Below, one piece after another: positions 492 through 35,232 of a stretch of DNA of 64,000 nt. The notes beneath the pieces were generated by a model. That model saw only the letters and a program-made list of their open reading frames with translations, did no database searches and was not told where the DNA came from. The stretch covers positions 186,001 through 250,000 of the forward strand of contig JANBVI010000009.1 in NCBI GenBank assembly GCA_024239075.1, written 5' to 3'. Position 1 is the first letter of the stretch, and each line of letters opens with the position of its first letter. This stretch comes from Fischerella sp. CENA71. GTDB lineage: Bacteria; Cyanobacteriota; Cyanobacteriia; Cyanobacteriales; Nostocaceae. The translations under genes and the position numbers were made by a program.

Positions 492-1445
492 GTGAATTAT
501 AAATTTGAATTTCGTCCTTACCAGCGAAAATTTGTGCGCGGGATTGTTACGAGTTATGGGGTTTGGGAGATTCGTGAAGGTATTATTCTTCGCCTTACAG
601 ATGAAACTAACAAAGTAGGTTGGGGAGAAATAGCGCCGATTAGCTGGTTTGGTTCGGAAACCTTAGCACAAGCCTGGGATTTTTGTCGTCAGTTACCAAT
701 GGAAATTACTGAGGAAACTATTTTGTCTATCCCTGATCAGTTACCTGCTTGTCAGTTTGGATTTGAGTCAGCACTTTTTTCTCCACCCACTCCCAGTACT
801 CCCCTCACCCATAGCGCCTTACTACCTGCTGGGGAAGCAGCACTACAAGCGTGGGAGAATTTGTGGCAACAAGGATACTCTACTTTCAAATGGAAAATCG
901 GTGTTTATCCGACGCCTGTTGAACTAAAAATTTTAGATTTACTCACGCAAAGCTTACCAACGTCTGCAAAACTGCGGTTAGATGCTAATGGTGGATTGAA
1001 GCAAGAGAAAGCAAAGTTGTGGTTAGAGAGTTGCGATCGCCTAAATAGCAAGATTGAATTTCTTGAACAACCTTTATCTGTAGATCAATTTCCGCAAATG
1101 CTGGAGTTGAGTAAATGCTACAAAACAGCGATCGCTTTAGATGAATCTGTCGCTACACTCCCACAGCTAAAATACTGCTTTCAACAAGGTTGGCGAGGAA
1201 TTTTTGTAATTAAACCATCAATAGTCGGTTCTCCATCCCAGTTGCGTCAATTTTGTCAGCACCATGAGATTGATGCAGTGTTTTCATCTGTCTTTGAAAC
1301 TTCTATTGGCAGAAAAGCAGCCATGCAAATAGCAGTGGAATTATCCAGACACAATCGGGCGATGGGTTTTGGTATTAATCATTACTTTGCTGAAGATGAG
1401 GGAATTGGGGATTGGGGAGCAGGGAGAGTAACCAACGCCCAATGA
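492..1445 (+). CDS. menC: o-succinylbenzoate synthase (enolase superfamily)
   Basis: Dehydrates SHCHC to o-succinylbenzoate in the cytosolic menaquinone/phylloquinone pathway. The 317-aa product shows enolase-superfamily barrel signatures: the KxK motif in FKWKIG, metal ligands in LRLDANGG, FLEQPL and ALDES, and the second catalytic Lys in FVIKPS. The start is GTG at 492, preceded by AGAAGG at 484-489. The last residues (GDWGAGRVTNAQ) are encoded by repeat DNA: a GGGGATTGGGGAGCAGGGAG stretch and then the first CCAATGA heptamer, whose TGA is the stop. The conserved part of the protein thus ends about 15 residues earlier. menE follows within 11-35 bp, so the two are probably co-transcribed. Confidence 0.9.
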   Translation: MNYKFEFRPYQRKFVRGIVTSYGVWEIREGIILRLTDETNKVGWGEIAPISWFGSETLAQAWDFCRQLPMEITEETILSIPDQLPACQFGFESALFSPPTPSTPLTHSALLPAGEAALQAWENLWQQGYSTFKWKIGVYPTPVELKILDLLTQSLPTSAKLRLDANGGLKQEKAKLWLESCDRLNSKIEFLEQPLSVDQFPQMLELSKCYKTAIALDESVATLPQLKYCFQQGWRGIFVIKPSIVGSPSQLRQFCQHHEIDAVFSSVFETSIGRKAAMQIAVELSRHNRAMGFGINHYFAEDEGIGDWGAGRVTNAQ

Positions 1446-1466
1446 CCAATGACCAATGACCAATGA
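1439..1466 (+). repeat. CCAATGA heptamer tandem repeat (4 copies) at the menC/menE junction
   Basis: Four perfect head-to-tail copies of CCAATGA. The first supplies the menC stop codon, and later copies supply ATG codons upstream of menE (1449, 1456, 1463). It belongs to the short tandemly repeated repetitive (STRR) type common in heterocystous cyanobacteria. Confidence 0.9.
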
Positions 1467-2889
1467 CAACCAACAAAAAATGGAGATATTAGGAAATTTT
1501 AGTTTGGTGTGCGATCGCAGTGATGAACTGGCACAATTAATTGAAGAATTTTATTTAGAATTAATAAACTTCTCTAACAGCCAAACAACACCAAAATTAA
1601 TTTTGGCTGAACGCGAACCCGTACGATTTTTGGCAGGATTTATTGCTGCTTACACCGCTAAGTGTCCTGTCTTTCTTTGTAATCCTAACTGGGGAAAACA
1701 GGAATGGCAACAAGTAATTGATTTAGTACAGCCAGATATTATTTGGGGAATAGAGGAAAGACGCGGAGATATGGTGAAGTGGGGACACGGAGATATGATT
1801 CATAATTTCTCCGCGTCTCCCACGCACCGCGTCCCCGTGTCTCACTCCCCAACTATCATGATTCCCACCGGCGGTTCATCTGGTAATATCAAATTTGCTG
1901 TTCACAGTTGGGAAACTCTCACAGCTTCAGTACGTGGATTTACAGAATATTTTCAACTACAAACAGTCAATTCATTTTGTATATTGCCTTTATATCATGT
2001 CAGTGGGCTGATGCAATTTATGCGCTGTTTTACCACTGGTGGGAAATTAGTAATTTCACCTTTTAAAGAATTAGAATCTCGTCTATTACGTAAATTTGAA
2101 CCAGCATATTTTTTTATATCTTTAGTACCAACTCAGTTACAAACTATCTTACAAAACTCAAATTTAACAGCATGGCTATCCGAATTCCAAACAGTTCTTT
2201 TAGGAGGTGCGCCAGCTTGGGATGAAATTTTAGAGAAGGCAAGATATTATCAAATTAAACTAGCTCCGACATATGGCATGACAGAAACTGCTTCTCAAAT
2301 TGCCACACTCAAATCCGATGATTTTCTCAAAGGGAAAGTTAATAGTGGTCAACTTCTTCCTCATGCCAAAGTTAGAATTAGCAACGAAAAAGGCGAATAT
2401 TTAAATAATAATCAAACAGGAAATATTATCATTCAAGCAGAATCTTTAGCACTTGGTTATTATCCCCTCGTTTCTAACCTCCAAACCATAGCTCCTAATT
2501 TCTTAACAGATGATCTAGGCTTTATAGATAACGAAGGTTATTTAAATATAGTCGGGCGTAAAAGTGACAAAATCATCACTGGTGGAGAAAACGTCTACCC
2601 CATAGAAATAGAATCAGCAATCAAAGCAACTGGAATAGTAACTGATGTTTGCGTCGTAGGTATACCAGATAAACATTGGGGACAAGCAGTCACAGCTATT
2701 TATGTTCCGAAAAATTCAAATCATTCTGTGGTTGAAATTCAAAACTTACTTAGAGATAAACTCAGCAAATTTAAACTTCCCAAACACTGGATTCCTGTGG
2801 AAAAATTACCCCGCAATTCTCAAGGGAAAATCAATCGACAGCAATTACAGGAAATCGCTTTAGAAACCCTAAAAAACTCTAAAAAATAA
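1456..2889 (+). CDS. menE: 2-succinylbenzoate--CoA ligase (ANL superfamily)
   Basis: Activates o-succinylbenzoate to its CoA thioester for naphthoate ring closure. ANL-family motifs are present in order: the phosphate loop IPTGGSSGN (~135), APTYGMTETASQ (~275), the LTDDLGF...GYLNIVGRKSDKIITGGENVYPIEIE hinge (~355-390), and PRNSQGKINRQQL with the catalytic Lys near the C-terminus. The start is ambiguous because of the heptamer repeat: ATG 1456 lies within it, while ATG 1480 (MEILGNF) is in frame and may be the native start. Residues ~100-131 (between IIWGIE and SPTIMIPTGG) are encoded by a palindromic repeat and look like an in-frame insertion just before the P-loop. Confidence 0.88.
   Translation: MTNDNQQKMEILGNFSLVCDRSDELAQLIEEFYLELINFSNSQTTPKLILAEREPVRFLAGFIAAYTAKCPVFLCNPNWGKQEWQQVIDLVQPDIIWGIEERRGDMVKWGHGDMIHNFSASPTHRVPVSHSPTIMIPTGGSSGNIKFAVHSWETLTASVRGFTEYFQLQTVNSFCILPLYHVSGLMQFMRCFTTGGKLVISPFKELESRLLRKFEPAYFFISLVPTQLQTILQNSNLTAWLSEFQTVLLGGAPAWDEILEKARYYQIKLAPTYGMTETASQIATLKSDDFLKGKVNSGQLLPHAKVRISNEKGEYLNNNQTGNIIIQAESLALGYYPLVSNLQTIAPNFLTDDLGFIDNEGYLNIVGRKSDKIITGGENVYPIEIESAIKATGIVTDVCVVGIPDKHWGQAVTAIYVPKNSNHSVVEIQNLLRDKLSKFKLPKHWIPVEKLPRNSQGKINRQQLQEIALETLKNSKK
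1757..1845 (+). repeat. Palindromic repeat element inserted in frame in menE
   Basis: G-rich/C-rich inverted arms (GACGCGGAGA..., GGGGACACGGAGA and TCTCCGCGTCTCC, CGCGTCCCCGTGTCTC) surround the core TTCATAATT. The core and right arm (ATAATTTCTCCGCGTC) recur in the intergenic element at 8266-8368. It adds about 30 residues (RRGDMVKWGHGDM...THRVPVSHS) without breaking the frame. Confidence 0.75.
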
Positions 2890-2917
2890 CCTTTATAAAT
2901 TAACTTTTAACTTTGTA

Positions 2918-2974
2918 CAGACGCGTAGACGCTCGTAAGAGCGGCTTCTCGTAAGAGTAGAATCGCGTCTCTGC
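2918..2974. repeat. Palindromic repeat between convergent menE and thioesterase genes
   Basis: The outer arms CAGACGCG and CGCGTCTCTG enclose smaller stems (GCTCGTAAGAGC). It lies between convergent stops and could act as a bidirectional terminator, although there is no clean T tract. Confidence 0.55.
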
Positions 2975-2988
2975 TGACTTTTAACTTT

Positions 2989-3435
2989 TCAAATCGCCTC
3001 TCTCGATTTTCTTCTCTCTGCTTTTTCTGCGTCTGGTGCGTTCACTTCCAACCATTCAATCATCTGCTGAGGTAAATCTATTTTTTGTCTACTAGTAGTA
3101 TCAATACAAACATGTCTGGTAAATGCCTTAGCCACCATCACATCTGCTACTAAAATTTCGTAATTGATTTCAAATTTTTCATAACTCAGCTTTTGTGGTA
3201 TTAAAGTAACAACTAATTTATCACCACAAAATGTAGGACGAAAAAAATCTACATTAGCATGAACAATAGGATAAGCTACCGATGGGTTACTAAAAAATTC
3301 CTTAATATTAATACCAGATACTTCTAAAGATTCTTCATAAGCTTCATGGCAAATACTTAAAACATTGGCAAAGTACACTACCCCAGCAGCATCTGTATCT
3401 CGAAAGCGAACGGTACGATGATAGTTAAAAGACAT
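2989..3435 (-). CDS. Acyl-CoA thioesterase, likely DHNA-CoA thioesterase (hotdog fold)
   Basis: Small 4-hydroxybenzoyl-CoA-thioesterase-type hotdog enzyme. The N-terminal signature [33 protein letters not shown] carries the catalytic Asp of the [13 protein letters not shown]-type motif. In cyanobacteria this family (Slr0204 type) hydrolyses DHNA-CoA in phylloquinone synthesis, and its place next to menA, menC and menE supports that role. The start is taken as ATG 3435 (MSFNYHR); an in-frame TTG at 3444 is less likely, and no clear ribosome-binding site is seen. The C-terminus is basic ([13 protein letters not shown]). It lies 72 bp downstream of the HopA1-family gene on the same strand. Confidence 0.82.
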
Positions 3436-3507
3436 TTGTAGCAACCAAAATTATATTCTCCGGGTAATAGCTTAACTCCACTCAACTGAATTAAAACCTG
3501 CACTTAA

Positions 3508-4596
3508 TTAAACTAAAGGATGATATACATCTTCAGAACTAGGATTAAGATAGGGGCGTCGTAAATCTATTCCGAAACGTGCAAAATGTTGGTAAATAGT
3601 TTGTATTCTTTGTTGAGTAGAATTTTGCCCTTTTTGCCAAGCTTCTAACAAAGCATTAGCGACAATTTGACAACGGTTCATGCCAAAACTTTCTTGAACA
3701 ACAAATTTTTGGGCTGGTTCTTCAGCTACACTTAGCCCAGGTGCTAAATACTTTGTAAATAAGGGAATTTCTGAATGAAAATGAGATTTGTGTTGTTTAT
3801 ACACAGTTTGCAGAACTTCTCGCACGACCCAATAGTTGTGGCGTTCAAAGTAAAGAACCCCTGAGTCAAAACGTTTATAAGCAGAGGGATTATATGGAAC
3901 TTGAAAGCTAAAGGCAATACCAGCAGCATTGAGTTGCAATGTCAAGCTTTCCATGAGAGCGATCGCTCCCACTGGAGTTAAATTAAAATAAATCCGTCCT
4001 TCTCCTAAATCAGTATCAGGGTTTTCACTTAATTTTTGAGCAACATTACTAACTGCAATGTAGCAACCATTTTGCAATCGATTTTTTGGCATCCAAATAC
4101 TGATGAAATCGCCAGCCCTGACAGATTGCATCATTTGTTCTACATGCTGTTCACTTTCAACATGTAATGTCAAACCACCTTTAATTACGGCTAAACTGCC
4201 ATCTGGTTCACATCGTAACACCTGCCAACCAGAGTCATAATACCCAGTACCGTAATTGCTAGAGTGTAATTGATCATACAATTGCCAATCAATTCCCAAA
4301 ACGGAATTATTTTCTAAATTTTTATGGGGTAAAAAATTATTAGGTTCAGCATTCACTGCTAAAACACTTTGTAATGAACCATTGTAATAAATACCGTAGA
4401 TAAAATTTCTGACTAATAAAATGAGATATTTTTGCTGTATTGCTTGGGAATTTTTTTGAAATCTTTGTGCTAACTGACTCGGCAAAGCAAAAGATTGATA
4501 ATTAGGATGGTAAATGCAAAAGTTAGACTTGATTTGAATATTACCGGCAATATCGAGTAGAGAATTTAGCAAATGCTGGTCAGAACAATCTATCAT
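3508..4596 (-). CDS. HopA1-family protein (LxmY/TvaD-like candidate lyase)
   Basis: 362 aa. The C-terminal half has the pattern I associate with the HopA1 family: GRIYFNLTPVGAIALMESLTLQLNAAGIAFSFQV, VLYFERHNYWVVREVL, FTKYLAPGLSVAEEP and SFGMNRCQIVANALLEAW. The name comes from a Pseudomonas type III effector, but in bacteria lacking type III secretion the family includes TvaD (thioviridamide) and LxmY (class V lanthipeptide), which work with a kinase-like partner to dehydrate Ser/Thr or eliminate phosphate. Here it starts 33 bp after an aminoglycoside-phosphotransferase-like gene on the same strand, the same pairing. The role in this organism is inferred. No signal peptide or membrane segment is seen. 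Confidence 0.75.
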   Translation of the reverse strand: MIDCSDQHLLNSLLDIAGNIQIKSNFCIYHPNYQSFALPSQLAQRFQKNSQAIQQKYLILLVRNFIYGIYYNGSLQSVLAVNAEPNNFLPHKNLENNSVLGIDWQLYDQLHSSNYGTGYYDSGWQVLRCEPDGSLAVIKGGLTLHVESEQHVEQMMQSVRAGDFISIWMPKNRLQNGCYIAVSNVAQKLSENPDTDLGEGRIYFNLTPVGAIALMESLTLQLNAAGIAFSFQVPYNPSAYKRFDSGVLYFERHNYWVVREVLQTVYKQHKSHFHSEIPLFTKYLAPGLSVAEEPAQKFVVQESFGMNRCQIVANALLEAWQKGQNSTQQRIQTIYQHFARFGIDLRRPYLNPSSEDVYHPLV

Positions 4597-4629
4597 GACT
4601 TTGAATCTCCCCGTTTATCTCTTTTGTGA

Positions 4630-5874
4630 TCAACACCCACGCAAACGGGTTTTGCTGTAGTAAATTCGGACTAAATTCTGTTCTTTTTCCGTCTGAGGGT
4701 GTTTGGTAGATTTCACAAAAGATTTGGTAATTTCTGATTCGGAGATTCCAAAAACTGTCATGATAGATTCTTGTGGTCTTGTAAGTAGACTTTTGGCAAC
4801 TTGTAGCATTGCAATGCCACTGTTATCAAAAAATTTACGTTCTTGAATTGTTGCTTGTAACTGATGAATTAGTACCAAACCCGCAAACTGTACTACTCGT
4901 TGAATGAAGTCACAATGGTAGTCCAAAATGCTGGGGAAAGCATTGAGATAAGCTTGAATCAAAGCAACTATAGAAGGGTGAAGAACTTCTAGTGGTGTTG
5001 CGGCTAATTCTAGAGATTCTTCTAATTTGATGGAGGGATCTACCACCAAGCTTTCTAACCAAATTTTCAAATAGCTTGCTACTAAGGTTCCTAAATCAAA
5101 GGCGGGATCTCCCCAACTACAAGTTTTCCAGTCAATGATACGAATCAAGCAGTTATCTAGTTGTTGCCATCGAGAATGTACTAAGATGTTTTCTAGTTTG
5201 AGGTCGTTGTGAGTTAAACAGCAAGGCTGCCATAAAGATGCTAACTCTGCGATCGCGGATTCTAAACTTTCATAACGTTGATAAAGAGTATAAAACTTGA
5301 GTGCATCAGTCGGAACACTACCAAAAATCTCCGAACTAAATGACTCTATTCCTTGGGCGGGATTGTAAAACTGATAGCGAAATTGCCCTTGGGGAGCAGT
5401 TGCCATAAAATCACGATACTCACGCTGATTAAATGTGGCACGATGCAGCACACCCAAGCTAGCACCGATGGCGTTGGCTATTTCCAAGGGATAAATATCA
5501 TTGTGTTGATAAAAATTACCTAATTCAAAGTATTCCGTTAGATAGTTGCGAACAAGTATAGATTCCTCTTCATCAAAATGCAGTAATAGCGATCCGATCT
5601 CCGCAATATTTCCTAAAACTGGAAACTGCTGCAATAACTGATGAAATAACCATTCATTAAATAATTCTTGGGGAATACCATCATGTTCGATGTTACGTTC
5701 CTGCTTCACTAATAATTTGCGATCGCTTCCCAAATTTATCAACAATTTTATATTTTTATTGCTATTTTCTACTAACTGAGAATCCGCAACAACCCCATCC
5801 TCAGAACTACACAGTCCTACGTTTTGCAAATGCTCGATGAGGTGGTGATTTGGAGAATACAGTGAAAATACCAT
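4630..5874 (-). CDS. Aminoglycoside-phosphotransferase-like kinase (LxmK/TvaC-like)
   Basis: 414 aa with an APH/choline-kinase fold. The catalytic loop HNDLKLENILV (~residues 221-231) keeps the D and N of HxDxxxxN, and IIDWKTCSWGDPAFDLGTL (~245-263) supplies the metal-binding Asp. It lies directly upstream of the HopA1-family gene, so the two probably form one transcript. In thioviridamide and class V lanthipeptide clusters such kinase-like proteins phosphorylate precursor Ser/Thr before elimination by the HopA1 partner. Here no precursor, flavin decarboxylase, YcaO or protease gene is visible nearby, so the substrate is unknown. A ~45-residue hydrophilic tail ends in YSKTRLRGC. The upstream ~1 kb carries no gene. 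Confidence 0.78.
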   Translation of the reverse strand: MVFSLYSPNHHLIEHLQNVGLCSSEDGVVADSQLVENSNKNIKLLINLGSDRKLLVKQERNIEHDGIPQELFNEWLFHQLLQQFPVLGNIAEIGSLLLHFDEEESILVRNYLTEYFELGNFYQHNDIYPLEIANAIGASLGVLHRATFNQREYRDFMATAPQGQFRYQFYNPAQGIESFSSEIFGSVPTDALKFYTLYQRYESLESAIAELASLWQPCCLTHNDLKLENILVHSRWQQLDNCLIRIIDWKTCSWGDPAFDLGTLVASYLKIWLESLVVDPSIKLEESLELAATPLEVLHPSIVALIQAYLNAFPSILDYHCDFIQRVVQFAGLVLIHQLQATIQERKFFDNSGIAMLQVAKSLLTRPQESIMTVFGISESEITKSFVKSTKHPQTEKEQNLVRIYYSKTRLRGC

Positions 5875-6863
5875 ATATTATTTCCTAACTCGTAAAAGTG
5901 CTTAGAGAATTAGCTAACTTGTTATTAGCCTAGTGTAAGTAGTATTAGCTAAGTAGTAAAAACTGGTGAGTAAGAATATTGATTGTTACAATCTACTAAT
6001 ATCCTATATTGTCAACAAAAACTTGCCAAAATGGCAATTCAGCCTTTACTTACCTTTAAATTTTGCTTCGTAAAAAATTTAAATATTTAATAGTTTTGAT
6101 GATGTTTAATTGATATTAACTGCTTCTTGATAATTTTTCATTTATCAATCAAGACTATACATGTCTGTTTAGAAGTGATTTTTTTATTTCACTAACTAAA
6201 TGTCCACTCCAATAAACTTATGTGAACAGGTTAATAACCTTACCTAATTTCAAAAGTGATTATATACACGAGGAATATCGTGTTTGAAAAAATCAAAAAA
6301 TTTTTTCTATTTTTTTTATGAGCTTTTGATATATTTCAAGATGTCAGTTTATTAATGTCATCCTGTACTAGGTTCATGGTTATATTTTGAAGTCTTGATA
6401 GATAGATATAAACTGAAACTTCTTTAAACTAACATTAGCAAGTGGCAAAATCCTGCGTATTTACCAGATAATATTCAAATTTTTTCTAAAAATGGTAGTT
6501 AAAACTATCTAAGTGTTGAATAGTTACTTACCTTCACCTTACATTATTTTTACATACAAAAACATTGATTTTGACTACTTTTCATGTTTAAAAACATTTT
6601 TTAATAACCTGAATAAACAGCGCAAATAAACAATGAAATAACTGAATAATATAAATTGCTTGATATCAAACAGCTTTTACAGAAGAATATTAGTTCACTA
6701 TATAACCTTTCAGCAGTGTAGTAATTACTGAATCTGTACAAGTTCCTACGGGGAACAGGGAAAGGGACATTGGGCATTGATTGGGAAGAGACCTGTTAAA
6801 TAATTCCCCCGTGTCTCCCTTTTCCTGCTCCCTGCGTCAACACCTACCTACTAACAAAAACTT
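5875..6863. other. AT-rich intergenic region upstream of the kinase/HopA1 pair
   Basis: About 990 bp with no convincing gene. Peptide frames are short: for example 6031-6090 (+) gives MAIQPLLTFKFCFVKNLNI and a minus-strand frame near 6140 gives an 11-mer. Neither has a good ribosome-binding site. An inverted repeat TTGCCAAAATGGCAA lies at 6023-6037. Its size suggests a regulatory leader or an unseen small RNA or peptide for the divergent kinase gene. Confidence 0.5.
6751..6835. repeat. Palindromic G/C-rich repeat
   Basis: GGGGAACAGGGAAAGGG is matched by TTTTCCTGCTCCC around the core GGGAAGAGACCTGTTAAATAA. The same core (GGGAAGAGACTTGTTAAATAA) occurs at 18053-18073. It is one of several related elements in this window and lies just downstream of the DUF948-like gene. 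Confidence 0.7.
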
Positions 6864-9620: not shown

Positions 9621-12341
9621 ATGGATTTAATTCTTTGTCACACAACAGCTGATTTTGATGCTTTAGGGGCGGCGGTAGGACTGACACGTTTGCTTCCTGG
9701 TAGCAAAATTGTGTTAACTGGCGGCGCTCACCCACCAGTGCGGGATTTTTTGGCGTTGCACCGAGATGAGTATCAGTTAATTGAACGGCGTTCTGTGAAT
9801 CCGAAAAAAATTCGTTCTCTGACTGTAGTAGATACTCAATATCGCGATCGCCTTGGCAAAGCAGCAGAATGGTTAGATTTACCCCATCTTAAAGAAATCA
9901 TAGTTTATGACCATCACCTTGCACAACATGGTGATATCCCTGCTACAAAATTACACATTGCGCCTGTAGGAGCCACCACAACTCTGATTGTGGAGGAATT
10001 ACAAAAACAGCAAATTTCCCTCTCAACTGCCCAAGCAACTGCGATGGCGTTGGGTATCCATGTTGATACAGGTTCGCTGCTCTATGACCACACCAAACCA
10101 CGGGATGCCCTTGCCTTGGCTTGGTTGATGCAGCAAGGAGCAAGTTTATCGGTAGTTGCTGAGTATGTAGAACCTGGCTTGTCTCCACAATTGCAGCAGT
10201 TATTATCAGAAGCGCTTGACGATTTGCAATATTTATGCATACGGGGATATACCCTAGCTTGGGTAACATTAGTAACTGATGGTTATGTACCAGGTTTATC
10301 GAGTCTAGCCTCCGAACTGATGGAGTTGACAGAAATAGATGCTTTATTGTTGGCAAATAAATATGGTGTGGGAGAAGGTGATTCACGCTTCACAGTCATT
10401 GGGCGATCGCGAATTTCTGAAGTCAACCTCAACCAAATCTTTCAACCTTTGGGTGGTGGTGGACATTCGCAAGCCACATCGCTGAATTTGCGGGGTGTAA
10501 ATTGCCGAGAAATACTCAATCAATTATTGGAAAGCTTAAAAGCGCAAATTCCCTATCCACCAACAGCACGGGATTTGATGTCATCGCCAGTTCGGACGAT
10601 TCGCCCAGATACCACTATTGAGGAAGCACAGCGAATTTTGTTACGCTACGGACATTCTGGTTTATCTGTTGTTGATACCCAAGGTAAGTTATTGGGTATT
10701 ATTTCCCGTCGCGATCTTGATATTGCTTTGCATCACGGCTTTAGTCATGCACCTGTTAAAGGTTACATGACGATTAATGTCAAAACGATTACTCCTAATA
10801 CCACTCTGCCAGAAATTGAGTCATTAATGGTGACTTATGATATTGGACGCTTACCTGTATTAGAAAATGGGGAATTGGTAGGTATAGTCACCCGCACTGA
10901 CGTTTTGCGAGAGTTACATCAGCAGAATGATAGTGAAAGGGGAAGAAGCGGGGAAAGGGGAACAGAAGGGGAAGATGATGTTGAGATTCCGACATTGGGA
11001 GAATTGCGCGATCGCCTCAATCCCAAACTCTGGGAATTACTCACCAAAGCATCCGCCCAAGCCAAACAACGGGGTTGGCATTTATATTTAGTAGGAGGAG
11101 CAGTACGCGACTTGCTACTAGCAAAAGAAGCATCTGGTAGTTTGTTAATCAAAGATATTGACTTAGTCGTTGATGGCTTTCATAAAGCTGCTGATGTTGG
11201 CGCAGGTGTAGAGTTAGCAAAAGCACTCCAGGAAATTTACCCAGCAGCACGATTAGACATTCATGGTGCTTTTCAAACTGCGGCTTTGCTTTGGCACAAA
11301 GATCCAGAATTAAATTCTTTGTGGGTAGATATTGCCACTGCGAGAACAGAATTTTATCCTTACCCAGCTGCAAATCCTGAAGTCGAAGCTAGTTCGATTC
11401 GCCAAGATTTGTATCGGCGTGATTTTACCATCAATGCTTTAGCGCTAAGACTTACTCCTCCCCGTGCAGGGAAACTCCTAGATTTTTTTGGTGGTTTGCT
11501 AGATTTACAAGCAAAGCAAATTCGTGTTTTGCACGCCAACAGTTTTATTGAAGATCCGACTCGTATTTATCGCGGTGTACGCTTTGCTGTGCGCTTTGGA
11601 TTTAAAATTGAATCGCAAACAGAAGAATATATTCGTTATGCCATTAACAGTGGTGTTTACGATCGCACTACAAAAGAAAATCATAAAACACCTGCACTCC
11701 AAACCCGCCTCAAAACAGAATTAAAGCACATCTTAGAAGCACCTTATTGGCAAGCCGCTTTGCAATTACTTGGAGATTTAGGGGCGTTACAGTGTATTCA
11801 TCCGAGTTTCAAAAAATTAGATGCAGAATTATTGCGGCAATTACGATTACTAGAACGCTGTCTACGCAAATTTGATTCCGAAGAAACTCTGCTGACTCAC
11901 TGGCAAATGCGCTTAGAAGTGATTATCGCTCACCTTGCCCCACCATATCGACCCAAAGTAGCTAAAAATCTGCAACTACAAGAAGATAGCATTGAACGCT
12001 TGGAGAAATTAGCCCAAGTACAAGCTAAGGTGAGAGATGCTTTACCCACTTGTCAGCTTCCGAGTCAGGTGGTGAAATTGCTGCGAGCCTATGATTTACC
12101 CACGTTGATTTTAGTTGCTTTACACAGCTCTCGCCCAATTAGGAAGCAAATATGGCATTATTTGACAGTTTGGGCGGATGTTCAGCCGATATTAAATGGA
12201 AATGACTTGAAAAAACTTGGTTACAAACCAGGGCCACAATATCGGCAAATGTTAGATGATTTACTAGCTGCGACATTAGATGGCAAGATTTGCGATCGCA
12301 CTTCCGCAGAAGAGTTTTTAAATATAAATTACAAAATCTGA
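9621..12341 (+). CDS. DHH phosphoesterase - CBS pair - CCA/poly(A) polymerase fusion
   Basis: About 906 aa. Order of parts: DHH domain with [17 protein letters not shown] at the start and the DHH triplet in [15 protein letters not shown]1-type domain with [10 protein letters not shown] (~280); two CBS motifs ([11 protein letters not shown] and [11 protein letters not shown], ~320-435); a Gly/Glu-rich linker [14 protein letters not shown] from repeat-like DNA; then the class II nucleotidyltransferase head [12 protein letters not shown]...IKDIDLVVD (~490-520) and the RNA-binding [24 protein letters not shown] motifs. It is expected to add or repair tRNA 3' CCA or to polyadenylate. The start is taken as ATG 9621, nine nt after AAAGGA; GTG 9594 and ATG 9615 lie in the repeat. 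Confidence 0.88.
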
Positions 12342-12374
12342 ATCAATCTTATAAAAATTTTATTTTCATCGCTG

Positions 12375-12650
12375 TTAAGATTTTTGTTTCTTCTGATTAA
12401 ATAAACCAGACATACTCAAACCTGTAACTACCAACCCAATAATTCCTAAGCCATTCAAGATTGGATAGATTGCTTGCAGATGAAAGATTTCGCCTGTATG
12501 GATGCTTAAAATAAATCCAGAAGTCAGCCCTGTGTCAATTGGCCATTCTCTAACAATAGTTGCTAACATTCCTGTCAGCGCAGTTAAAAGTAATGGCAAA
12601 GCAAGAATAATTGCGATAGTGCGATGGTACTTACGAAATAAACGTTTCAT
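12375..12650 (-). CDS. Small PepSY-type membrane protein
   Basis: 91 aa with two hydrophobic segments (TIAIILALPLLLTALTGMLATI and ILNGLGIIGLVVTGLSMSGLF) joined by a loop containing SIHTGEIFHL. The RKYHRTIAIILALPLLLTALTGM start resembles the first helix of PepSY-associated membrane proteins. The C-terminus is basic (NQKKQKS). It is convergent with the preceding fusion gene, and no partner gene is adjacent. The function is unknown. Confidence 0.6.
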   Translation of the reverse strand: MKRLFRKYHRTIAIILALPLLLTALTGMLATIVREWPIDTGLTSGFILSIHTGEIFHLQAIYPILNGLGIIGLVVTGLSMSGLFNQKKQKS

Positions 12651-13095
12651 AATCGTTATTCAGAAAAAAATAACTAATAAAATTTAATATCATTGCAAAA
12701 ATAAACCTTATTAAATATTAACTTAAAATTTGTGTTTAAAAATTGAGATTTGTTCACAAAAGCTCAAAATATAGCAATCCGTGTAGGAGTGATGAATCTT
12801 GCAGAGGCTAAGATCCCCAACTTTGCAGAAGTTGTTGGGGATTTTGTTGTTCATGAATGATTTAGGAATGCTAGATAAAAAACTCAATGTCAAGAACTGG
12901 GAAACAAAGTAGAAATCTTAGTAAAAATTTTATTTCTTTGGCACTTTTTTAGCCTTATAGTCTTAATACTTCAATTAGGTACTGTCTGGTGATGATGTTT
13001 TCCCAAGGTAAGGTGATATTTTTATCTATTACCTGATAACTAATACCAAGTACCGAATTACCAATACCTATAATACTTCTGCGAAGGAGTTTTTG
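12651..13095. other. Intergenic region with a stem-loop at 12813-12842
   Basis: No gene seen. A stem-loop with perfect 9-bp arms ATCCCCAAC/GTTGGGGAT (12813-12821 and 12834-12842) is followed by TTTGTTGTT. Similar GATCCCCAAC palindromes are common dispersed elements in Nostocales. The 3' part is the presumed promoter region of the lipoprotein gene. Confidence 0.5.
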
Positions 13096-13536
13096 ATGAA
13101 GCGTTTTAATCAAGTTTTATTTATTACTGCAATTAGTATGTTGACCTTAGTCGGGTGCAATAAAGGTGAACAATCTACCACGCAGACATCACCCACAGCA
13201 ACTGCCACACCCGCAAGTGCTACATCTAAGAAAACAGCTACTACTACTGTTAAAGACGACAACTTTAAAGGTTTATTAACAGTTGTTTCCAATACTCAAA
13301 CAGCCGTTAAGGCTGGGGATTTTACTAAAGCTAAACAAGAGTTTGGCAAATTTGAGGATTATTGGTCAAAGGTTGAGGATGGAGTGAAAAAGAAATCTTC
13401 CAAAACCTACAATAGCATTGAAGACGAGGCAGATAAAATTAAAGGAGATTTGAAAGCCTCTGCACCAAATAAAGATAAGGTACTAGCAGCATTACAATCT
13501 CTCAATACGAATATTAATAGTGTTGCTAAACCTTAA
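13096..13536 (+). CDS. Secreted lipoprotein, DUF4363-like size, unknown function
   Basis: 146 aa. A lipobox signal peptide (FNQVLFITAISMLTLVGCNKGEQ) is followed by a Thr/Ala-rich linker (TTQTSPTATATPASATSKKTATTT) and a helical ~90-residue domain (FKGLLTVVSNTQTAVKAGDFTKAKQEFGKFEDYWSKVEDGVK...). ATG 13096 follows GAAGGAG with good spacing. The helical domain resembles small periplasmic helical-bundle proteins, but I cannot name a family. It probably sits on the outer face of the plasma membrane or in the outer membrane. Confidence 0.72.
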   Translation: MKRFNQVLFITAISMLTLVGCNKGEQSTTQTSPTATATPASATSKKTATTTVKDDNFKGLLTVVSNTQTAVKAGDFTKAKQEFGKFEDYWSKVEDGVKKKSSKTYNSIEDEADKIKGDLKASAPNKDKVLAALQSLNTNINSVAKP

Positions 13537-13611
13537 GAGTTAACAAATACTCTGCGTTCCTCCGCGTTAAAAACGCTAAGATTTTACGCTCGACAACCAA
13601 AAAACTGAAAA

Positions 13612-13640
13612 GGCAGGTTTCTAGCCTGCCCTTAAATCTT
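13612..13640. terminator. Bidirectional terminator between lipoprotein and MBL-fold genes
   Basis: GGCAGG (13612-13617) pairs with CCTGCC (13625-13630) over a short loop and is followed by TTAAATCTTTTT on +. The preceding AAAA gives a T run on -. It lies between convergent stops. Confidence 0.75.
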
Positions 13641-13641
13641 T

Positions 13642-14412
13642 TTAAAACTTGTAACTTAAAACTTGTATCGCCCCATTCTCCGGTAAATTACTGGAAGTAA
13701 CAGTAATTTTGTCGCTATCGCTACGACGTACACTCATCCCATTCATCGCTGTTAAAAAATTATCTAAGGGAGAAATATCGCAAGTAGCTTCATCAGCTGC
13801 TTGAGTACGGTAATGGGTAGGAATAATCAATTTAGGATTGATCGTCTGAATTGCCTGCTTTGCTTCTTCAGCATTATAAGCTTTAGCACCACCGCCTACA
13901 GGTACTAGTGCCACATCAGGACGACCAATGAGAATTTTTTGTTCAATGGAAATAGGTGCAGCAGCCCCCCCTAAGTGGAGGATATTAATTCCTGCTTGCT
14001 GCCATTGCCAAGCGGCATTTGTACCGAATTGCTTCCCACCTTTGCGATCATGGGGAATCGCAATTCCTTGAAATTTAATGCCTTTGAACTCGTAAACACC
14101 AGGTTCGTAGATTAACTTCGGATTTCCCGGTAAATCTTCAACTGCACCTTCATCCAACAGTTGACTGCTAATCAGTACTAAATCTGCTGCTACTTTCGGT
14201 GGACGATACTTAGCGGTACAACCGACTGTGCGAAATGGGTTGACAAGAACTTTCGTACCGCCACCTGTAAACAGAAAGCAAGTATGACCCAACCATTGAA
14301 TTGATAATGAACCGCTAGATTGGGCGTTAGCTTGAAAGTGAGAACCCAAACTAGTAACCAAAGTTGTTACCAACCCTGCCCCAGCATAGCCCATTAGTTG
14401 CCGTCGTTTCAT
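13642..14412 (-). CDS. Tat-exported MBL-fold (UlaG-like) protein with altered metal site
   Basis: 256 aa. The N-terminus MKRRQLMGYAGAGLVTTLVTSLGSHFQANAQ is a twin-arginine-type signal peptide with an AQA-like cleavage region. The body follows the UlaG-like metallo-beta-lactamase fold: SIQWLGHTCFLFTGGGTKVLVNPF, AVPHD-like IAIPHDRKGG, ILHLGG and LIIPTHYRTQ. The usual metal-binding SHxHxDH is replaced by SSQLLDEG and HLGD by HLGG, so several zinc ligands are missing. It starts 3 nt after trpG stops. The catalytic role is doubtful; a lumenal or periplasmic non-enzymatic function is possible. Confidence 0.8.
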   Translation of the reverse strand: MKRRQLMGYAGAGLVTTLVTSLGSHFQANAQSSGSLSIQWLGHTCFLFTGGGTKVLVNPFRTVGCTAKYRPPKVAADLVLISSQLLDEGAVEDLPGNPKLIYEPGVYEFKGIKFQGIAIPHDRKGGKQFGTNAAWQWQQAGINILHLGGAAAPISIEQKILIGRPDVALVPVGGGAKAYNAEEAKQAIQTINPKLIIPTHYRTQAADEATCDISPLDNFLTAMNGMSVRRSDSDKITVTSSNLPENGAIQVLSYKF

Positions 14413-14415
14413 TAA

Positions 14416-15021
14416 TTACTCTCTTGTTTTCGTCTGTAATTTACAAAGAAAGTTTCGCAGTAACTGCTTGCCTGAAGATGTCAGAACACTCTCTGGATGA
14501 AATTGGACGCCTTCTATATGAGGATAGTTCCGGTGTCTGACCCCCATAATTGTGCCATCTTCCACCCAAGCGGTGATTTCTAACACATCTGGACAGGTGT
14601 CGCGATCGATTACCAGGCTATGATACCGGGTAGCGACAATTGGGTTTTCTAATCCTTGGAAAACCCCAACCCCCGTATGAGACACTTGGGAGGTTTTGCC
14701 GTGCATTAACTCTGGTGCCGAAACAATATTACCACCGAACACTTGACCAATACTTTGATGACCCAAACAAACCCCTAAGATTGGTAAGTCAGTTCCTAGT
14801 TTTTTGATTAAATCTAGGGAAATACCCGCATCATCTGGGCGACCAGGACCGGGAGAAATTACCACTCCATCTGGTTTTAAGGCATTAATCTCATCAAGGG
14901 TAATCTTATCATTACGAAATACTTTGATATCTGCCGCTACAGGGAATTCTGCTGCCAGTTCTCCCAAATATTGCACCAGATTGTAGGTAAAGCTGTCGTA
15001 ATTGTCAATAACGAGAAGCAC
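14416..15021 (-). CDS. trpG: Anthranilate synthase glutamine amidotransferase subunit
   Basis: 201-aa class I glutamine amidotransferase that supplies ammonia to TrpE (and possibly PabB). Signatures: [32 protein letters not shown], nucleophile Cys in [12 protein letters not shown], and His/Glu in [11 protein letters not shown]. The start is GTG 15021 with GGAG ten nt upstream. The downstream MBL-fold gene begins 3 nt after the stop, so they are translationally close. No trpE is in the window. Confidence 0.93.
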
Positions 15022-34482: not shown

Positions 34483-35232
34483 ATGCGACAACCAACCATG
34501 AAAATCTTTACCCCGATTCCTGATCCTTATTTTCAAGACAGCGATACTCAACAGCCTAAAACTGGGCTAATGGTGCAATTGCGCTCAACTGCAAAAACAT
34601 ATTTCAATGGTCAGAAAGCTCTGTTAGATATGAATTTGGAAGTAAAACAGGGTGAATTTTTATTCATTACAGGTCCTAGTGGTTCTGGTAAGTCAACACT
34701 GTTGAAACTGCTGTATGGTGAAGAATTACCAACACAAGGAAAAGTAATAGTCGATGGGTGTGATGTAGCTTCTTTGCGGGGCGATCGCTTATCGTTATTT
34801 CGACGCCGTATTGGCATTGTGTTTCAAGACTACAAACTTATCCTTCAAAGAACTGTAGCAGAAAATATTGCTGTTGTCTTGCAAGCACAAGGATATACCC
34901 GTAAAGAAATTCAACGGCGTCTAGAACCGACGTTAAAGTTAGTAGGTTTGTTGAATAAAGCTGACTGTTTTCCGGAACAATTGTCTGGAGGAGAACAACA
35001 AAGGGTGAGTATTGCCAGAGCAATCATAGCAACCCCACCTATACTTTTAGCTGATGAACCAACTGGTAATCTTGATCCTGATAACTCCTGGCAAATAATA
35101 CAGATTCTTCAAAAGTTAAATTCCTTTGGAGCAACAGTAATTGTTACTACTCATGATGAGCAACTAGTCCGCAGATGCGGTCATCGTGTCGTACAAGTCC
35201 GTAACGGTAAATTGTATCAAATTAGTCAATAG
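34483..35232 (+). CDS. ftsE: Cell division ATP-binding protein FtsE
   Basis: 249-aa ABC ATPase. Walker A GPSGSGKSTLLKLLYGEE, Q-loop VFQDYKLILQRTVAENIA, signature LSGGEQQRVSIARAI, Walker B PILLADEPTGNLD and switch His TTHDEQ. VEL/LYG elements around Walker A and the QDYKL motif are typical of FtsE. It has a ~30-residue N-terminal extension (MRQPTMKIFTPIPDPYFQDSD...) with a second possible start at 34498. FtsE pairs with the permease FtsX to control septal wall hydrolysis. No ftsX gene follows; the next gene is an unrelated convergent membrane protein. Confidence 0.9.
   Translation: MRQPTMKIFTPIPDPYFQDSDTQQPKTGLMVQLRSTAKTYFNGQKALLDMNLEVKQGEFLFITGPSGSGKSTLLKLLYGEELPTQGKVIVDGCDVASLRGDRLSLFRRRIGIVFQDYKLILQRTVAENIAVVLQAQGYTRKEIQRRLEPTLKLVGLLNKADCFPEQLSGGEQQRVSIARAIIATPPILLADEPTGNLDPDNSWQIIQILQKLNSFGATVIVTTHDEQLVRRCGHRVVQVRNGKLYQISQ

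Follow-up and report, generated by a model that had tools for sequence, protein, structure and literature searches.

A kinase–HopA1 gene pair conserved in a family of heterocyst-forming cyanobacteria may be a repurposed relative of class V lanthipeptide dehydratases

We analysed a 64,000-nucleotide stretch of Fischerella sp. CENA71 (contig JANBVI010000009.1, positions 186,001 to 250,000; hereafter, the window) that carries, on its minus strand, a gene for an aminoglycoside phosphotransferase (APH)-fold kinase followed by a gene for a HopA1-family protein. The two are homologous to LanK and LanY, the kinase and lyase of class V lanthipeptide dehydratases. Our favoured reading, held with slightly less than even confidence, is that the pair is a neofunctionalised paralogue of such a dehydratase, a phosphorylating complex with a non-eliminating partner that works in the nitrogen-deprivation or heterocyst programme. 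The want of a precursor nearby and the loss of a key catalytic residue suggest that a peptide-modifying machine has taken on another task, perhaps that of a developmental kinase. If true, a natural-product enzyme pair would have become a conserved cellular function, with a lost base and a new tail as its signature and a defined host range. The features on which the argument turns are as follows.

4630..5874, minus strand: APH-fold kinase of the clade called O below, LanK-like, 414 aa, ATG start (open reading frame and profile matches)
4633..4686, minus strand: codons of the conserved C-terminal tail, KEQNLVRIYYSKTRLRGC, found only in clade O kinases (34/34 O versus 0/50 others)
3508..4596, minus strand: HopA1-family (LanY-like) protein, 362 aa, ATG start, predicted not to catalyse beta-elimination (PF17914 match, catalytic lysine replaced)
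3901..3903, minus strand: codon of Gln232, which aligns with the catalytic lysine of LanY proteins (K219 in CaoY, lysine 221 in LxmY chain 9dk1_B; profile alignment to 9dk1_B and column counts)
3871..3873, minus strand: codon of Arg242, 10 residues past 232 as CaoY R229 is past K219 (column counts)
6024..6036, minus strand: TGCCATTTTGGCA, an inverted repeat that may be the pair's operator (32/34 O promoters)
5991..6004, minus strand: GGATATTAGTAGAT, a conserved stretch that may be the core promoter (from aligning the 34 upstream regions)

Both open reading frames (ORFs) of the original prediction were confirmed, with the kinase gene 33 bp before the HopA1 gene. The HopA1 profile PF17914 (positions 1–170) covers residues 169–350 of the partner with E = 3.6e-58 and 196.6 bits against a cut-off of 22.7, so that the family assignment, one of the steps at which the prediction could have failed, stands. 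The kinase matches APH (PF01636, E = 2.5e-11) and, over residues 95–373, the LxmK model NF038156 (E = 1.5e-20), at 73.6 bits against an equivalog cut-off of 315; the kinase of a second pair, linked to a ribosomally synthesized and post-translationally modified peptide (RiPP) locus on contig C83 of the same genome, also stays below that cut-off with 83.3 bits. The HxDxxxxN motif is intact (H222, D224, N229), and K57, E74 and D248 are present too. The proposed homology to the class V pairs TvaC/TvaD, LxmK/LxmY and CaoK/CaoY is supported, with the LxmK match below its equivalog cut-off, and the kinase was not placed among small-molecule kinases that have some other conserved partner. With CaoK/CaoY and LxmK/LxmY the window pair shares the neighbouring APH-fold kinase and HopA1-family partner, the catalytic residues of the kinase and the arginine equivalent to R229; it differs in the replaced LanY lysine, the additional kinase tail and the score below the LxmK cut-off. 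The thioamitide pairs TvaC/TvaD and TsaC/TsaD consist of the same two families, also adjacent.

Relatives were sampled for HopA1 in 60 genomes, 36 of the window's family and 24 others. A HopA1 gene was present in all 36 of the former and in 5 of the 24 others (one of the five a fragment). The fetched regions, which leave out the fragmentary matches G010:C297 and G054:C76, number 80 and, together with the window and the C83 locus, gave 84 kinase/HopA1 pairs. In a quick tree of the kinases, with Shimodaira–Hasegawa-like approximate likelihood-ratio test support and without bootstrap, 34 kinases including that of the window lie on one side of a branch with support 99 (clade O), and the other 50 make up the rest (C). 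The C pair is missing in 12 of the 36 family genomes. A scan of named genomes covered the best 80 of 175 relatives. The nearest paralogues of the window pair are those of the Family 1A clusters and of the type-B LanA systems (PMC8153245 and PMC9486802). Unlike O, these Family 1A-type pairs have leader peptides nearby (43/50) and keep the lysine (45/47).

The first mark of clade O is the loss of this lysine. In the CaoY experiments of PMC9486802, K219 is given as essential, the K219A variant yielding phosphorylated peptide only. When a profile of the O proteins was compared with LxmY (9dk1_B, E = 1.2e-5), position 232 fell on a lysine, and the arginine at +10 and the tyrosine at +17 match the K219/R229/Y236 spacing of CaoY. 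Position 232 reads Q30/E2/H2 in the 34 O rows versus K45/E2 in 47 C rows (L052, L086 and L100 are left out of the 50), and Q76/K1/E1 in 78 named O-type loci, L203 and L234 having no HopA1 gene on their contig; the O and named sets overlap in genomes and are not summed. The claim that the pair phosphorylates and then eliminates, in the manner of TvaC/TvaD and LxmK/LxmY, is therefore not upheld, the CaoY K219 position being other than lysine in 34/34 O rows and 77/78 named loci. R242 is kept in 32/34 O proteins and H30, which perhaps corresponds to CaoY H57, in 34/34; R201, probably the counterpart of CaoY R187, is kept in 29/34 and Y249 in 23/34. From its sequence, the O lyase would have lost its base while retaining most residues on the phosphate side. 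The kinases of the clade, by comparison, keep K57, E74, H222 and N229 in 34/34 and D224 and D248 in 33/34 each. Both genes of the pair are under purifying selection, the ratio of nonsynonymous to synonymous substitution rates (dN/dS) against five relatives being 0.09–0.17 for the window HopA1 gene and 0.11–0.21 for the kinase. The strong selection on the lyase gene and the retention of H30, R242 and R201 would also suit a working class V-type dehydratase whose precursor lies elsewhere, with Gln232 or another residue as base; its product would be a conserved peptide with dehydrated residues, possibly one that signals in heterocyst formation. Given the loss of the essential lysine throughout the O rows, we regard this as unlikely.

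The second mark is the kinase tail. It follows a variable linker, has the consensus LxxLYYxKTRLRGC and is present in all 34 O kinases and in none of the 50 C kinases, with codons that vary synonymously among the former. Among the 80 named loci the kinase ends in KTRLRGC in 69, KTRLRGF in 5, KTQLRGC in 4, and KSRLRGC and NTRLRGC in 1 each. The C-terminus of the tail has the Thr-x4-Cys spacing of the aminovinyl-methylcysteine (AviMeCys) of thioviridamide. A role of the tail as an in-cis lanthipeptide core was nevertheless rejected, since the threonine at −5 is replaced by Ala or Pro in 3/34 O kinases and the last cysteine by Phe in 5 of the 80 named loci.

Conservation, which the original prediction had proposed to survey for the pair, was followed with a profile of the tail. 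At E ≤ 0.01 it found the tail kinase in 188 of 193 family genomes and in 56 of 56 genera, once per genome save for two copies in G024 and G382; the matches listed fall in frames of about 410–440 aa. The profile missed five family genomes, one of them 99% complete (G016) and the others fragmented or incomplete (G356, G359, G377, G401). Among 291 genomes of the order there were 28 convincing matches, all in the family, and one weak match outside it (E = 0.009, in a 40-aa frame); among 292 genomes of the phylum, all 31 convincing matches were again in the family. This family comprises heterocyst formers, in agreement with the named relatives found: the best 80 of 175 are all cyanobacteria, those with names being of Nostocales type (Fischerella, Westiellopsis, Nostoc, Anabaena, Scytonema, Brasilonema, Calothrix, Cylindrospermum and Chlorogloeopsis among them) and two being "uncultured cyanobacterium". 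Within these 80, the kinases closest to that of the window come from Westiellopsis prolifica, Pelatocladus and Fischerella (88–95% identity). Such conservation bears on the notion that the pair is a decaying relic of a RiPP cluster, with which the lost lyase base and the want of a precursor or further cluster genes nearby would agree. The retention of the tail kinase in 188/193 genomes, the low dN/dS (0.09–0.21) and the conserved new tail contradict it, and we consider a relic largely refuted and scarcely credible.

The distribution tracks the family and does not follow nifH strictly: in G035 the tail kinase is present although no nifH passes the cut-off, and G016 carries nifH and lacks the pair. 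These two genomes count against a strict tie to nitrogen fixation. In the window's genome nifH, being split, also fails to reach the cut-off, so G035 may not lack the gene. The two overlapping pieces lie about 33 kb apart on contig C74 (90586–91281, plus strand, and 123784–123984, minus strand) and look as if interrupted by a large element, perhaps one that is developmentally excised. The family-wide pattern would fit a clade-wide kinase/pseudo-lyase pair that has nothing to do with heterocysts (acting, for example, in general stress or at the envelope) and whose distribution reflects shared ancestry. We judge this improbable, though worth keeping in mind; the promoter repeat common to the hetP region and the induction reported for alr2463 after nitrogen step-down, both described next, speak against it.

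About 150 bp upstream of the window kinase lies the inverted repeat TGCCA-N3-TGGCA. It stands upstream of 32 of the 34 O kinases, 108–174 bp before the start codon and in 25 cases exactly as TGCCATTTTGGCA, while none of the 50 C kinases has a match with fewer than 4 mismatches in the 260 bp before its gene. An alignment of six close relatives showed the upstream region of the kinase to be most conserved in its last ~200 bp, the site of the repeat. The pattern TGCCATWTTGGCA occurs 75 times in 20 family genomes, compared with 8 times for a reversed control (35 versus 5 in a set of 8 genomes and 40 versus 3 in one of 12), and once in total in three genomes of other families. O promoters, by position, account for 14 of the 75 copies; in the survey of neighbouring genes, the copies G000:C78, G029:2944870 and G032:6771586 were left out of the 75. 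In 8 of the 20 family genomes (the window's genome G000, G003, G029, G032, G009, G319, G337 and G374) a copy lies 131–723 bp 3' of a hetP-family gene, which in the window's genome scores over the HetP cut-off (NF037966). A large exporter gene, presumably HetC-like, is found near the hetP repeat in the first four of these. In G023 the repeat is about 1.4 kb from hetP, on its 5' side. TGCCA-N3-TGGCA may define a small regulon of the family, and we treat its sharing with the hetP region as a lead, not as proof. Elsewhere, inspection by eye found a recurrent site flanked by a ddl-linked gene and a hydrolase gene, some intragenic copies, and a copy after ackA in three genomes of the genus.

A second lead comes from expression data. 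In Table 5 of Simm et al. 2015 (PMC4365693), alr2463 of Anabaena PCC 7120 is entered as "Aminoglycoside phosphotransferase", heterocyst-specific and found in all six heterocyst formers studied, with one similar sequence in other bacteria; its induction by nitrogen step-down amounted to 9.8-fold (12 h) and 3.6-fold (21 h). The gene is probably the orthologue of the window kinase, because only O is near-universal in the family. Annotation and distribution are alike, and its row in that table carries no HopA1 partner, lyase change or tail. No further mention of alr2463, alr2464 or alr2465 was found in the open-access literature searched. The reading would make the pair testable under a name, probably as alr2463 with the gene next to it, in Anabaena PCC 7120, a model for cell differentiation in bacteria. 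Signal-peptide handling in heterocyst differentiation (PatS, HetN, HetC export) is still being worked out.

The original prediction had remarked on the absence of a visible precursor, and the wider search agrees with it. A survey of small ORFs (20–150 aa, within 6.5 kb, recurring in at least 8 of the 34 O loci) gave 146 clusters. Only five of them are for the most part clear of larger ORFs, namely the thioesterase, a TMEM14-like gene, a further two about as distant as the latter, and a short opposite-strand frame over the promoter repeat. None is precursor-like, although a peptide too variable for BLAST would escape the survey. A precursor adjoining the pair was rejected on these grounds. Consistent with this, the Family 1A leader appeared in the fetched region of 0/34 O loci versus 43/50 C pairs. 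Nor were a YcaO, LanC, flavoprotein decarboxylase or peptidase-containing exporter gene seen in the 30 of 34 ORFs of at least 150 aa that were scanned between 12 and 64 kb of the window, and in the ORF list from 1 to 12 kb, read by eye with 8 proteins profile-scanned, no RiPP gene besides the pair was found; YcaO/TfuA and flavoprotein decarboxylase genes were found in neither part. These absences, of which those of a YcaO, decarboxylase and transporter next to the pair had been noted at the outset, set the window apart from the TvaC/TvaD and TsaC/TsaD loci with their YcaO, TfuA and flavoprotein decarboxylase, and, as no precursor, decarboxylase or reductase was found near the pair, from CaoK/CaoY and LxmK/LxmY. 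One ABC ATP-binding protein among the scanned ORFs (34483–35232) lies amid sugar genes.

A precursor acting in trans was sought in the 12 genomes that have only an O pair, where the Family 1A leader profile gave nothing at E ≤ 1 in four (G004, G020, G024, G033) and a match at E ≤ 0.001 in only two (G014, G015); matches at E ≤ 1 arose as well in 3 of 8 control genomes devoid of HopA1 genes. With weak or no matches in these genomes, an in-trans precursor carrying this leader was rejected. These results count against the working dehydratase with a distant precursor, to which the GG-leader peptides found elsewhere in some O genomes lend some support. One such family, of 69 aa, whose leader is a shortened relative of that of Family 1A, occurs in three genomes of the genus (at C57:188588 in the window's genome, and at L140, L143 and L129). 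It is not put forward as a substrate, as it was not found in all O-only genomes. The alternative raised at the outset, that the pair has another substrate, is supported. The findings also bear on genome mining, in which co-occurrence of HopA1 and a phosphotransferase would count as class V lanthipeptides a clade that has no nearby precursor and is present in most family genomes.

Taken together, the favoured reading of a neofunctionalised, phosphorylating complex could be laid out in steps. An ancestor of the heterocyst-forming lineage would have gained or kept one LanK/LanY-type pair beside menE and the thioesterase, where the synteny is observed and the ancestry conjectural. The lyase, deprived of its catalytic lysine, would no longer eliminate phosphate, as the behaviour of CaoY K219A suggests. 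The kinase, with its catalytic residues kept, would have acquired the linear C-terminal tail, probably to dock or recruit substrates as a precursor's leader would otherwise do; the complex would phosphorylate serine or threonine residues in some peptide or protein whose gene lies elsewhere, and the HopA1 subunit may serve as a structural scaffold or phosphopeptide-binding partner. A role in the nitrogen-deprivation or heterocyst programme is suggested by the promoter repeat and the reported alr2463 induction. In the expression work of PMC12141560, LxmK and LxmY did poorly apart: LxmK needed a fusion to be soluble, and LxmY formed aggregates. This behaviour would explain the retention of a catalytically silent HopA1 partner. 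A more specific version, which we consider doubtful, has LanY turned into a pseudo-lyase that holds the phosphopeptide and LanK carrying an in-cis recruiting tail, the pair phosphorylating, without elimination, a peptide or protein of HetC/HetP-linked peptide signalling in heterocyst formers under a shared operator.

Several observations weigh against the favoured reading. The lone Lys232 among the 78 named loci (L220, a Nostoc desertorum metagenome-assembled genome) may be a reversal or a sequence error; elimination that is Gln-based or residual is possible for the O lyase, and R201 and Y249 vary. The replacements of the tail threonine and cysteine would make the tail no strict substrate. AlphaFold models were poor (mean predicted local distance difference test score of 44.2 for a read-through fused chain and 49.5 for the kinase alone), too poor to place the tail. 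No substrate candidate emerged from the precursor searches. The repeat copies 3' of hetP do not share the core promoter of the O genes, the putative orthology of alr2463 is based on name and distribution, and the mismatch with nifH in G035 and G016 belongs here as well.

Cyanobacterial kinase/HopA1 pairs are already published as Family 1A, with 183 biosynthetic gene clusters, by Eyles et al. 2021 (PMC8153245), and the 1,340 HopA1 proteins of that study may well include O members. No account of the O clade, its lost lysine, its tail or its promoter was found in the open-access literature searched, whose scope stops short of the supplements of Eyles et al.

On the other side of the pair the window carries a group of phylloquinone genes, as the original prediction had noted.

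2989..3444, minus strand: hotdog thioesterase, next gene after HopA1, same strand (profile scan)
1456..2889, plus strand: menE, convergent to the pair, in the men-thioesterase block (NF005662, 653 bits against a cut-off of 640)
492..1445, plus strand: menC, in the men-thioesterase block (profile scan)

The thioesterase, 63 bp beyond the HopA1 gene, is over no NCBIfam cut-off and is probably the 1,4-dihydroxy-2-naphthoyl-CoA (DHNA-CoA) hydrolase. It is present at 31 of the 34 O loci, in all of these downstream on the same strand and in 28 of the 31 within 300 bp, and menE is near the pair in 28/34; no men genes stand near C pairs (0/50). This linkage would favour a small-molecule kinase system that serves phylloquinone metabolism and shares an operon with the DHNA-CoA thioesterase. 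However, a convergent menE-thioesterase block (≤1.5 kb) occurs in 9 of 20 genomes of other families, none of the nine having an O-type HopA1 gene; as the block stands without the pair there, linkage need not imply function. The homology of the pair is to peptide kinases, and cyanobacteria without it are generally known to make phylloquinone, so that we hold this explanation to be quite improbable.

The second pair of the same genome lies on contig C83, preceded by three tandem genes for 65-aa precursors, which have a GG leader and a core containing serines and no cysteine. The pair is followed, by eye, by an aldo-keto-reductase-like gene (no NCBIfam match), PpiC-like genes, HlyD and an ABC transporter, the whole class V-type cluster (locus L005) spanning 10466–14931. 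An aldo-keto-reductase-like gene is near 13 of the 50 C pairs, and it is possible that the C83 product is reduced, with a D-amino acid rather than lanthionine. The cluster is of the cyanobacterial Family 1A type, as set out by Eyles et al. 2021 (PMC8153245), and probably the same as the type-B LanA described in PMC9486802. At 1885–5706 of the contig, a LanM-like class II synthetase was seen by eye together with a precursor that has a Nif11-type leader.

Altered pairs also occur at RiPP-type loci. A third deep kinase branch holds L112 and L118, with two tandem pairs each, and L115; its kinases have the catalytic Asp replaced by Asn in 3/3 and its lyases the lysine by Glu in 2/3, and in L112 and L118 the altered pair adjoins a normal one.

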